From positions 1,240,001 to 1,304,000 of the forward strand of contig NC_030990.1 of assembly GCF_000149955.1 (NCBI RefSeq): a stretch of DNA of 64,000 nt, written 5' to 3'. The DNA is from Fusarium oxysporum f. sp. lycopersici 4287 (lineage: Eukaryota > Ascomycota > Sordariomycetes > Hypocreales > Nectriaceae). A model generated the notes under the pieces. That model was not told the origin of the DNA. It saw only the letters and a program-made list of their open reading frames with translations, and searched no databases. A program made the translations under genes and the position numbers. Of the stretch, positions 42,700 to 46,828 are shown piece after piece. How positions within the stretch are numbered: position 1 is the first letter of the stretch; every line of letters begins with the position of its first letter.

Positions 42700-45159
42700 T
42701 CAACTGCCGGTGTCATACATGTCAACTCGATACTCAGACTCTTGCTGCAGATGACGCTTGAAGAATTCCCTTTGGCGAGCAAGACCATACTTCTCTCCCC
42801 CACAGCCATGTCCACCACCAGGAATAAATAGAAACTCATAATTCTTACCCGCCTTGTTCAAGGCATTCACCATTTGAAACGTTGAAGATGGATCGACATT
42901 ATCGTCCATATCTCCAGCAATCAGCATCAAGGGCCCCTTGAGTTTCTTGGCGTGAGTTATGTTAGATGCTTTCTCATATGCCTCATCCACTGGGTATCCC
43001 ATCCACAATTCGTTCCACCATAACTTATCCATGCGGTTATCATGACAACCTGAATCTGCTATACCGGCTTTGAAGAAATCACTGTGGTGAAGCATTCCTG
43101 CTACAGCGTTTTGTCCTCCTGCTGAAACGCCCATGATTCCCACTCGAGAGAGGTCCATCCATGGTCGTGAAGATGCTGCAGCTTCCAACCAAGCGATATG
43201 GTCTGGAAGCCCTGAATCGTGAAGATTCTTATAGCAGACATCATGGAAGCTTTTGTTTCGCCAGTTTGTACCCATTCCGTCAATGACCACGACGATGTAC
43301 CCTTCATCTGCCCATCGCCGTCGATCTGAGAGAGTTGAAAATGCTTTGGGGACCCGAAAGTTATGAGGCCCAGCATAGATCTCATCAAACACGGGATATT
43401 TCTTGGTGCTGTCAAAGTCGACGGGTCGAATGATGATTCCGTATATAAGTGTCTTGCCATCCCGGCCAGGGGAAGCGAACCTCTCGGGAGAAGACCATCC
43501 CTTATCTTCCAACTCTTTCGAATCCGTCTTCTCGAGTGTCATTATCTCTTCTCCAGACTCGCTTTCACGAAGAACTGTTGTCGGTGGGCAATCTATCCTT
43601 GACCAAGTGTCTATCAAGTAGCGTTTGTCTGGAGAGAAAGACCAAGAGTGAGTTCCATCTCCATCTGTGAGAACCTTGAAATCTGACCCATCGAAATTGA
43701 CTCTTGCTAGATGTGCGTGATAGGGGTCTTCACCGTCCTTCAGTCCATAGCCTCGCACCCAGATTCGACGATGATCTTTGTCCACAGACTCTACAAAATT
43801 GACCATCCATGACCCTTTTGTGATCTGGTTCTTGACTGAGCCAGTTATGAGGTCGATCAGATACAGATGATTGTATCCGTTGCGCTCACTAGCCCAGATG
43901 AGTTCATCAGAGTCTCTGAGGAGCTTAAAGTATGACTTAGTATAGTCTACAAATGTGCGGCTCTTCTCTTCCACGAGCGTCCTGACACTCCCGTCAACTT
44001 TGATACCAATCAATCTGGTATGTTGATGGCCACGCTCGTTAAAATAAAAGAGATATTCCTGGCTGTTAGGATTCCATTCCAGATTGCTCACTTGGTAAGG
44101 GTCCCTGAAAAGCGAATCGTCAGTTGCAACTTCGCTATGAGTGTTGAGGTTAAAGAGTCGAGGTCTGTCGACCCTGACACGGTCACCTGGTTTGAGATAT
44201 GTCTTTGTGTGAAGTTTTGGCTCAATCTGATCTTCTGGAGATGATTCCACCAGGTTGATCTTACGGTCTTGCCCCGGGGTATACTGCCATGCGACTGCAT
44301 GCTGCTTGTCTGGCGATATGTATAAGCGTCTTTTGTCGTAAGGGCTCTCTTCGTTTCCTTTCTCAGACAGTTCAAAGGCTTCATCGTTCTCATTTTTGTA
44401 CCATACGTTGAAGTCTCTGACATAGAGACATGGGCCGTTTTCGGGCTCCGTTGGTTCTTCATCAGTTTCAGAATCTTCATCGTCGCTGGGCGGAGATGCC
44501 TCAGGGATAGAGTCACTGAGATGCTCGATGATAGCGATATGATTTCCCTCGTCAGGTGCTGAATAGACTGCCCTGGATTTTTCGTTCGACACATCTACCA
44601 GTCGCCAAACATGGCCCACGTATGTAATCTGTCGTTTTGTTTCGCCATTCCTGATCGACATATATGGAATAGCTTTTGCTTTCCAATCGATCCAAAACAC
44701 CCTGAGGGTTTTGCCTGTACGATTCACAAAATCGACGGTGACTTTAGTGTCACTATGTGCAGAAATGACTTCTTGTTGGAGCAGGTGATCTGGTTCAGTG
44801 GTGAATTGTCCCTCCCACTCTTCGAGTTGACTATTTGGCCCAAACTGCCACTTTCGATTGTCGAAGCGGAATCGGACACATGATTCGTCTGGGACCGGTT
44901 CAATCCAGTTGAAAGGAAGAGAGAATTGGTCAATCTCTTCGTTTGTCTTCTCGCGCAGAGCCTCAGCGAGTTGCCTGTGGTCAAACGCTAACTCGCGAAT
45001 CTTTCCACGGACATCAACAAAGAGAAACTGGCATTTGGCAGGTGAGATATTCTGCTTATACCAAAATGCGTCGCCTCCTGGTAGCCAGCGAGGCGTCACA
45101 TTTGTCGAGTCGATGTATTGCTGTGCTAGTTGCTCCATTACTTTACTGATAAGACTCAA
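42700..45159 (-). CDS. Prolyl oligopeptidase family serine peptidase, DPP-IV type (S9)
   Basis: Intronless, 819 residues, the length of dipeptidyl peptidase IV-type enzymes, which remove Xaa-Pro dipeptides. An eight-bladed propeller is expected in residues about 50-560, followed by the alpha/beta-hydrolase domain starting at KYPVFDEIYAGPHN. The catalytic triad is Ser679 (GVSAGG), Asp at 752-753 (GDMDDNVDP) and His784 (GGGHGCGG). Their spacing of about 73 and 31 residues fits family S9. The nucleophile motif is GxSAGG rather than the usual GWSYGG, and the oxyanion tyrosine region is replaced by the WxxE-like WWNELWMGYP, so substrate preference may differ. There is no signal peptide or membrane helix, so it should be cytosolic. 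In-frame ATGs at residues 1 and 8 are both possible starts. Confidence 0.93.
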   Translation of the reverse strand: MSLISKVMEQLAQQYIDSTNVTPRWLPGGDAFWYKQNISPAKCQFLFVDVRGKIRELAFDHRQLAEALREKTNEEIDQFSLPFNWIEPVPDESCVRFRFDNRKWQFGPNSQLEEWEGQFTTEPDHLLQQEVISAHSDTKVTVDFVNRTGKTLRVFWIDWKAKAIPYMSIRNGETKRQITYVGHVWRLVDVSNEKSRAVYSAPDEGNHIAIIEHLSDSIPEASPPSDDEDSETDEEPTEPENGPCLYVRDFNVWYKNENDEAFELSEKGNEESPYDKRRLYISPDKQHAVAWQYTPGQDRKINLVESSPEDQIEPKLHTKTYLKPGDRVRVDRPRLFNLNTHSEVATDDSLFRDPYQVSNLEWNPNSQEYLFYFNERGHQHTRLIGIKVDGSVRTLVEEKSRTFVDYTKSYFKLLRDSDELIWASERNGYNHLYLIDLITGSVKNQITKGSWMVNFVESVDKDHRRIWVRGYGLKDGEDPYHAHLARVNFDGSDFKVLTDGDGTHSWSFSPDKRYLIDTWSRIDCPPTTVLRESESGEEIMTLEKTDSKELEDKGWSSPERFASPGRDGKTLIYGIIIRPVDFDSTKKYPVFDEIYAGPHNFRVPKAFSTLSDRRRWADEGYIVVVIDGMGTNWRNKSFHDVCYKNLHDSGLPDHIAWLEAAASSRPWMDLSRVGIMGVSAGGQNAVAGMLHHSDFFKAGIADSGCHDNRMDKLWWNELWMGYPVDEAYEKASNITHAKKLKGPLMLIAGDMDDNVDPSSTFQMVNALNKAGKNYEFLFIPGGGHGCGGEKYGLARQREFFKRHLQQESEYRVDMYDTGS

Positions 45160-45752
45160 GAATAAAGACGAAAGCGAGGTTCAAGAGGAATAAGTTAGAC
45201 ATGCTGTTGCCTAATCATCGTTTTGGTCATCTTTTAGCTGAGGCATGTATGCATGCATGCGTCTACGGGTAGTCCTATTGGGTGTCACGCGGTCATGGGC
45301 GGGATTCTATACATTTATAAACCTACTTCAAGCTTAGGCCTACTTATCATGGGACATCACAGTTTGGGAGAATCTGTAATCGTGTGTAATAACTCCCAGT
45401 CAATACTGTCTTCTTCTTGCCATTAAGTCAGTACAAGTTGGTGAGCTGATGCATACTGTTGATCAGCGAACTTATACCTTATTAAGCACTTAGATATGAC
45501 TGAACTTGAATAAAAAGTAACTCTCGTCTTTTATACTCCTTCTATCTATTGCCCATTACAAAAGGGAAAGATGCTTTCCGTGTACTGCAATGATTGATGA
45601 CCAGAGATCGTGTGTAAGTAGTTGTCAGTCACGTGCTCAGCGCCAGACAGCACACCTACAGGCTATAAGAAACTTAGTGCAAAACCACCACCAAAAAGAA
45701 ACCATGAAACGAGAACAACTCAAAATACCAAAATCGAAATAGGAAAAATTAC
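45160..45752. other. Intergenic region
   Basis: Promoter of the peptidase (which reads leftwards from 45159) followed by AT-rich spacer. A GCATG-rich patch (45245-45262) is present. Nothing else recognised. Confidence 0.5.
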
Positions 45753-45759
45753 AAAAAAA
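45753..45759 (-). terminator. RNA polymerase III terminator (T7)
   Basis: Seven T on the minus strand, starting nine bases after the last tRNA base; a second run of five T follows at 45744-45748. This is the expected Pol III stop for the tRNA gene and supports its activity. Confidence 0.8.
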
Positions 45760-45768
45760 TATGAAACC

Positions 45769-45890
45769 TAGCAATTGCACGTTTCGATCGTGCGACCTCC
45801 GGGTTATGAGCCCGGCTGCGTCTGTTAGTACAGGTTGTGTGATGCAGATTGTGAGATAGACATACCGCGCTTCCACTGCGCCAAATTGCT
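45769..45890 (-). tRNA. Initiator tRNA-Met (CAT), interrupted at position 26/27
   Basis: Without 45816-45865 the gene is 72 nt, the same length as yeast initiator tRNA. The acceptor stem is AGCAATT/AATTGCT (45884-45890 with 45770-45776), seven perfect pairs, discriminator A at 45769. The D stem is GCGC/GCGC with loop AGTGGAA; base 26 is G. The anticodon stem is CCGGG/CCCGG with loop CTCATAA; the T stem is GCACG/CGTGC with loop ATCGAAA; the variable loop is AGGTC. A1:U72, three G:C pairs next to the anticodon loop, and A54 with A60 in the T-loop are hallmarks of eukaryotic initiator tRNA, so this is not the elongator. The A box is intact (TGGCGCAGTGGAA at 45871-45883). A T7 terminator follows. 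The gene reads leftwards between two protein genes. Confidence 0.95.
45816..45865 (-). other. 50-nt intron-like insertion in initiator tRNA, with spliceosomal signals
   Basis: Lies between tRNA positions 26 and 27, at the D-arm/anticodon-arm junction. It starts GTATGT (45860-45865), carries TACTAAC (45824-45830), the exact yeast branch consensus, and ends CGCAG, with the branch adenosine about nine bases before the acceptor. Length (50 nt) and layout match the protein-gene introns of this window. Canonical tRNA introns lie at 37/38 and are cut by the tRNA endonuclease using a fixed distance from the tRNA body, which this one cannot satisfy. How it is removed is unknown. Confidence 0.85.
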
Positions 45891-46828
45891 TTCTTGGTGA
45901 AAGAGTGTGGGCTTATTTGAACATATACCTCCACCCCGAGTGACTCACTGAGCCCCCCACTGCCCTCAGAGTCACCAGTAGCATCACAGTGTTGGAAGAT
46001 CGAGAATTCAAAGAGTTGTTAATGAGTTGAAGCGAAAGCCAAAGAAATTATATAAATCTAATTAAAATGGCACAGTAATATTGATCCCTATTGCGCAGAG
46101 TTGGATGCGTGTTTGGCCTGGAACGCATATCTAACGTCTTCATCAGCCTCCCATAATGAGCTTCGGTCAACATCAGGATATTCTTCATCTCATGCATTCC
46201 GAAATGTACCTTGTAGTCTTGATATCGTAATACCTCTCTCGCATAATACGAGTCGCCAGAATGAGAGCCTTACAGTCTTGTACTGAACTCAAAAAATGTT
46301 CTCGGATGCAGCTCTGCTTTTTAGCAGTCACCAGGATAATAGTAGAAAGAGATATCCCCAAGTTTTACTGATGTGGATTAGTTTTGACATAAAACCAGAA
46401 GCGTACCTAAAAGTTGTTGAGCCCATCTCAAACGCTCACACTGAACAGTGACAGTATGCAGACCTCACGAGCCATCTGTGAGGTATCATGAATGGACCTC
46501 TCAATCGACTTGCAACGCAAATCATGAATTTAGTCACTAGGATTAAAACTGCATGAAACAATCAGCCAAGTACGTATTATGGTAAAAGAGCCACTCGAAT
46601 TGAATAAAGACGTGACTGGTATGAGCTATCTGACAGATACAGCACTGGAATATACATAGACGTATATGCCCCAATATGATATGAAGAAACTAGATGCTTG
46701 ATCCCTTAGCGATGCTTGTGAAATTTTGTAATGCCGCCCAACCAAAATTTTCACTCCTCAATGATTGTTGAGCCCTTTTGAGCTTTTTGAGTAGCATTTA
46801 CCCAGCAAACATGACCCCCATCCCCTAT
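45891..46828. other. Intergenic region
   Basis: Upstream flank of the tRNA gene (which reads leftwards) and 3' end of the Hsp70-like gene. Only short frames; nothing recognised. Confidence 0.5.

Follow-up and report, generated by a model that had tools for sequence, protein, structure and literature searches.

Every initiator tRNA-Met gene found in the genome of Fusarium oxysporum f. sp. lycopersici 4287, seven out of seven, contains, at the junction of positions 26 and 27, a short insert carrying the donor, branch-site and acceptor signals of an mRNA intron. We consider it highly probable, judging from the sequence, that this insert is an old U2-type intron, now fixed throughout the initiator tRNA genes, which would be removed by the spliceosome from RNA polymerase III (Pol III) transcripts. 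The structure of the genes, the intron in all copies found, the conservation of its signals and the compensated changes in the stems are observed directly in the DNA and are presented below together with the other explanations that bear on them.

One of the seven genes lies in the window, the whole stretch of 64,000 nucleotides that was analysed (C5:1240001-1304000), where it occupies positions 45890-45769 of the minus strand and consists of exons of 25 and 47 nt around a 50-nt insert (Table 1). The earlier note on this DNA had claimed that deletion of the insert leaves a 72-nt tRNA with all stems paired, and this proved correct with exact coordinates. Indeed, Watson-Crick pairs are found at 7/7 positions of the acceptor stem, 4/4 of the D stem, 5/5 of the anticodon stem and 5/5 of the T stem (21/21). 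The initiator identity features, the splice motifs and the terminator run that it had described are present as well: with the intron removed the gene shows A1:U72, A73, a GGG:CCC anticodon stem, the anticodon loop CTCATAA and the T-loop ATCGAAA, the insert contains GTATGT, TACTAAC and CAG with nine bases between the branch A and its end, and a T7 run follows at 45759-45753. GT-AG ends are obtained with one placement of the boundaries only, given that a shift by -1 yields an identical product without GT-AG. The intron site corresponds to the hinge which joins the D stem to the anticodon stem. The neighbouring gene at 42700-45144 is dipeptidyl-peptidase-like, and its best protein relative is from Fusarium oxysporum (98% identity over 100% of the query), followed by one from F. 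odoratissimum (97%).

Table 1. Features of the interrupted initiator tRNA-Met gene (positions are those of the window)
Feature	Coordinates	Strand	Details
Exon 1, initiator tRNA-Met positions 1-26	45866..45890	-	25 nt; presumed A box within 45883-45873
Spliceosomal-type intron, 50 nt, between positions 26 and 27	45816..45865	-	GTATGT donor, CAG acceptor; same site in 7/7 genes
TACTAAC branch-site motif	45824..45830	-	Presumed branch A at 45825, then 9 nt to the intron end
Exon 2, positions 27-73	45769..45815	-	Anticodon arm with CAT, T-loop ATCGAAA, A73; presumed B-box region 45790-45780
T7 run, putative Pol III terminator	45753..45759	-	T-runs of at least 6 follow 7/7 genes

The genome, 61,243,666 bases in 71 contigs, was scanned with the 17-nt anticodon arm allowing up to two mismatches, which gave 74 places of which 7 are exact, the counts of such pattern searches being possibly lower bounds. 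The seven exact matches are all complete initiator tRNA genes, four of them on C5 and one each on C10, C11 and C12, and one of the C5 genes is situated ~ 1.7 kb beyond the window. The earlier note had proposed that the other copies in the genome be checked for the insertion, and all 7 initiator genes found carry it at the identical nucleotide 26/27. Their introns measure 48, 52, 48, 50, 53, 51 and 52 nt and display the donor GTATGT (7/7), the branch motif ACTAAC (7/7) and the acceptor CAG (6/7) or TAG (1/7), with 9-12 nt from the branch A to the intron end. Since the same architecture is found at the same nucleotide in seven loci out of seven, chance is excluded. An assembly or sequencing artefact, in favour of which the window offers 479 N and nothing more, has a negligible probability, as the seven loci are separate, are spread over four contigs and differ in their introns and flanks.

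Initiator tRNAs are characterised by the anticodon CAU, a GGG:CCC anticodon stem and A54 and A60 in the T-loop. After removal of the intron all seven genes exhibit these characters together with the A1:U72 pair, which is described as an initiator tRNA-Met feature (PMC8450103, available text). Furthermore, a T-run of at least six lies downstream of each of the seven genes. Upstream of it, a presumed A box and B box, assigned by eye against the consensus, are present in 7/7, so that the three elements together correspond to a Pol III gene of type 2.

The introns were then compared with those of the host mRNAs. Protein homology places six introns in genes of the window (with at least one SDH intron besides), and their lengths are 47, 53, 54, 55, 57 and 103 nt; hence the 50-nt insert is of the size of the mRNA introns around it, as the earlier note had remarked, and the 48-53 nt of the whole family fall within the host range. 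Published Fusarium mRNA introns measure 42-529 nt with a median of 57 nt and contain CTRAY in 91% of cases (PMC5677156, available text), and the distance from branch site to acceptor in fungi ranges from 6 to 36 nt (PMC5832005, available text). The donor, the branch motif, the acceptor distance and the length of all seven introns are those of U2-type spliceosomal introns (GTRNGT-like donor, CTRAY). A counterpoint to this explanation is that GTATGT is not the commonest Fusarium donor, position +4 being A in 42%, C in 32% and T in 22% of cases (PMC5677156).

Ordinary tRNA introns were examined in the same genome, 63 of 2201 candidates having been scored in an Rfam tRNA search. The six that were read, in Ser(GCT) (17 or 18 nt, three genes), elongator Met (36 nt), Lys(CTT) (12 nt) and one tRNA with 39 nt, are located at or beside 37/38 and none of them starts with GT; the elongator Met intron contains CTGAC, with GT-AG ends absent. 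Hence, the canonical 37/38 kind and the spliceosomal type both occur in this genome. The tRNA with the 39-nt intron, at C4:3375419-3375539, is named Met(CAT) by ARAGORN and has a Leu-like body with a long variable arm, so that ARAGORN has probably misplaced this intron by one or two bases.

These introns bear on a different way of removal, namely that the Sen complex and tRNA ligase would excise the insert at an unusual place. The enzyme should be there given the ordinary introns near 37/38, yet the initiator insert sits at 26/27 in 7/7, distant from the cut set by the ruler of the eukaryotic tRNA endonuclease, and shows complete U2-type signals in seven genes out of seven, which the six ordinary introns never show together. 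A simple search for a bulge-helix-bulge (BHB) found a 4-bp central helix in 0/7 initiator genes, and two controls with ordinary introns lacked one as well. Ectopic tRNA introns known from a red alga and a nucleomorph provide a precedent (PMC3978253, available text), and altogether we regard excision by Sen as very unlikely. The ectopic BHB introns and permuted tRNAs of archaea, Cyanidioschyzon and the Guillardia nucleomorph are likewise disrupted outside 37/38, but they involve cleavage of the endonuclease type whereas the Fusarium initiator genes carry mRNA-type signals; many nucleomorph tRNA introns are described as having no defined motif (PMC3978253). Canonical introns, removed by Sen endonuclease and ligase, share with the Fusarium case their location in a nuclear tRNA gene but are situated at 37/38 without the set of GT, branch site and AG.

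An intron-free initiator tRNA copy was sought across the genome by means of the spliced junction and of exon 1, and none was found, a divergent or unassembled copy being able to escape these searches. With up to three mismatches the junction occurs at one place in the genome, and the letters that follow it there are not those of a tRNA. A search with 17 nt of exon 1 and at most two mismatches gave 22 places: the 7 exact matches correspond to the seven initiator genes, the single place with one mismatch has no tRNA after it when read in context, and the remaining 14 have two mismatches. The 67 two-mismatch matches to the anticodon arm were rejected as initiator tRNA, 23 having been read in context, where the surrounding tRNA is absent in all, and the other 44 having been judged on their 17 letters alone.

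The same 67 near-matches display features of another kind. Their reverse complement resembles a primer-binding site for the anticodon region of the initiator tRNA, which we presume to reflect half-tRNA priming as in copia elements, gag-like frames adjoin the near-match in both loci whose frames were listed, and in the 23 that were read the match ends with the base that opens exon 2 (tRNA position 27). Outside this genome, an exact scan for exon 1 followed by the donor found it neither in viral contigs nor in a collection of genome contigs that holds no fungal genomes as such. YAG followed by the anticodon arm of exon 2 was met in 3 bacterial and 11 viral contigs, and these candidates were dismissed as bacterial or phage-type tRNA-Met or other DNA, the initiator T-loop being present in none.

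ARAGORN reports tRNA-Met(CAT) in 7/7 spliced extracts versus 0/7 unspliced ones. Over the whole window neither ARAGORN with default settings nor Rfam at the gathering score sees a tRNA, and for the 501 bases of 45600-46100 cmscan at E<=10 returns three unrelated weak matches and no tRNA. When introns are permitted, ARAGORN gives the right span with the wrong isotype, Ser(act) or Glu(ctc), and a different intron. Minimum-energy folds of the seven precursors contain the acceptor and anticodon stems in 7/7, the T arm in 6/7 (in the exception, C5b, pairing occurs between intron and exon 2) and the D stem in 6/7 (the exception being the window copy). In the folds of the spliced letters the acceptor, D and T arms form and the anticodon arm adopts another register in 7/7; the cloverleaf therefore rests on pairing rules and ARAGORN and not on energy.

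The comparison of the seven genes separates what is constrained from what is free. The tRNA bodies fall into three classes of 3, 3 and 1 genes, which differ from one another by 10, 12 and 6 of 72 nt, every change being in the acceptor or T stem and accompanied by a change of its partner. In the class to which the window gene belongs the 72-nt exons are identical and the introns agree in 34/52, 41/53 and 42/52 columns of their alignments, signals included; in the second three-gene class the exons are again identical and the introns share 33/53, 37/56 and 40/54 columns, signals included. Thus the splice signals are kept and the remaining intron sequence drifts, and since identical exons stand beside diverged introns with kept signals, a single recent insertion does not account for the intron. 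A working gene with a removed intron would leave this pattern, in which exons and signals are constrained and the intron body is free. TTTT occurs in 0/7 introns, and its depletion was rejected as a signal given that about 0.9 are expected from shuffled introns and that 36% of the shuffles contain none.

This pattern bears on the idea that the interrupted genes are silent, invaded copies and that initiator tRNA is supplied by another, intron-free locus. Such a reading could appeal to the fact that the window gene is invisible to default ARAGORN and Rfam, but all seven copies found are interrupted with none intact, the two-sided stem changes keep the pairing, unlike decay, and T-runs are present at 7/7, which leaves it a very improbable explanation. 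Consequently, the two readings offered by the earlier note fared differently: a spliced mRNA-type intron is supported, its splicing being deduced, and a newly disrupted copy is not, as 7/7 genes carry the intron with kept signals and compensated stems. The silent invaded copy among intact genes that it had also considered is disfavoured, because intact intron-free copies were looked for with the junction and exon 1 and none was found.

Small RNA genes with introns of the same type were found elsewhere in the genome. Both U6 loci found (2/2) contain spliceosomal-type introns, at different positions, 47 of 3779 candidates having been scored so that more may exist. The locus at C7:3890980-3891082 and downstream has introns of 49 and 51 nt according to a hand-made cutting rule, the first with the acceptor AAG, and its scores are below the family cut-off; the one at C4:3413432-3413598 has a single GTAGGT...CTAAC...TAG insert, read by eye. 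Further tRNAs with spliceosomal introns were screened for with the pattern CTAAC...AG...TTCGANNCC, which gave 113 matches versus 250 for the reversed-pattern control. Among the matches listed one tRNA was recognised by eye, at C10:922418, the screen covering the CTAAC branch form only, with T-arm introns outside its scope.

This gene, at C10:922319-922473 on the plus strand, is a tRNA-Arg(UCU) with an 80-nt intron at 33/34 of the form GTCAGT...TGCTAAC...TTCAG. ARAGORN identifies the joined halves as tRNA-Arg(tct) and itself places an 80-nt intron there. No second locus matching its exon 2 within 3 mismatches was found in the genome, and the other exact match to the Arg(UCU) anticodon arm was rejected as a tRNA, not being called by ARAGORN. 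The letters could formally be read as an Asp-like tRNA with a GTC anticodon and an intron at 37/38, but the body resembles the Arg(UCU) type of yeast. The phenomenon is thus wider than the single gene of the earlier note and comprises the initiator family and a tRNA-Arg(UCU) gene.

The way in which the introns would leave the RNA can be proposed as follows. Pol III, directed by an A box in the first exon and a B box in the second, would transcribe each gene as far as the T-run, U1 would bind GUAUGU and U2/BBP would bind ACUAAC in the pre-tRNA, and the intron would exit as a lariat to yield a normal 72-nt initiator tRNA. The intron may be older than the spread of the gene copies or may have spread along with them, and would now be obligatory. 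Transcription by Pol III, spliceosomal removal and a dependence of initiation on splicing are in each case what the sequence predicts. A variant in which the introns are removed from Pol II read-through transcripts, Pol III giving an unspliced by-product, would agree with the normal coupling of spliceosomal intron removal to Pol II; it is nevertheless very improbable in view of the presumed A box and B box and the T-run at 7/7 and of U6, a gene of Pol III type with introns in the same genome. The fission yeast U6 gene is a known precedent for the latter (cited in PMC5832005).

For a spliceosomal intron in an initiator tRNA the nearest precedents are U6 and U3. The U6 snRNA genes of fission yeast and other fungi are, like the genes described here, small RNA genes of Pol III type with GT-type introns and CTRAY-like branch sites; they differ in that U6 is part of the splicing machine, whereas the Fusarium case is a tRNA with every copy found interrupted. 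The U3 snoRNA of Pezizomycotina and yeasts is likewise a structured small RNA with ordinary U2-type introns, although it is not a tRNA. According to the available text of a 2017 paper, 138 of 310 fungal U3 genes are interrupted, F. oxysporum is among the genomes with both intron-free and interrupted U3 copies, and U3 and U6 were the only small structured RNAs then known as often interrupted (PMC5832005). Among the matches listed from an open-access library with few subscription journals, no title or abstract beginning points to a report of tRNA genes with spliceosomal introns. In the tRNAscan-SE 2.0 paper noncanonical introns are searched for in archaeal tRNAs, and its main text has no word with the stem 'spliceosom' (PMC8450103); such words are likewise absent from a tRNA intron review in its available text (PMC4090602).

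With respect to the distribution of the feature, the tRNAscan-SE 2.0 paper found a predicted gene of some CAT-anticodon subtype lacking in only 6 of 173 eukaryotes, incomplete fungal genomes being excluded, and explained this by labelling (PMC8450103, available text). This figure fits awkwardly with the feature being widespread in well-assembled fungi, and therefore its spread over fungi may be limited, or weak matches were counted. On the practical side, tRNA genes of the split kind can escape common finders, given that the Rfam tRNA model is blind to the window gene at E<=10 and that ARAGORN without introns detects 0/7.

As every initiator gene found would need splicing, the supply of initiator tRNA would depend on the spliceosome. 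We consider it likely that the spliceosome is an obligatory tRNA-maturation enzyme in this lineage, with all initiator tRNA and at least one Arg tRNA (UCU, 33/34) produced by lariat splicing of Pol III transcripts and with splicing capacity setting the initiator supply. Testable questions arise from this: whether the ordinary spliceosome acts on Pol III transcripts, whether impaired splicing lowers initiation and by what route an intron becomes fixed in a whole gene family. The results suggest that the tRNA on which all protein synthesis depends cannot be made without the machinery that splices mRNA. If true, this would break the textbook division that assigns the introns of tRNAs to the Sen endonuclease and those of mRNAs to the spliceosome, and an essential tRNA family would come under spliceosome control.
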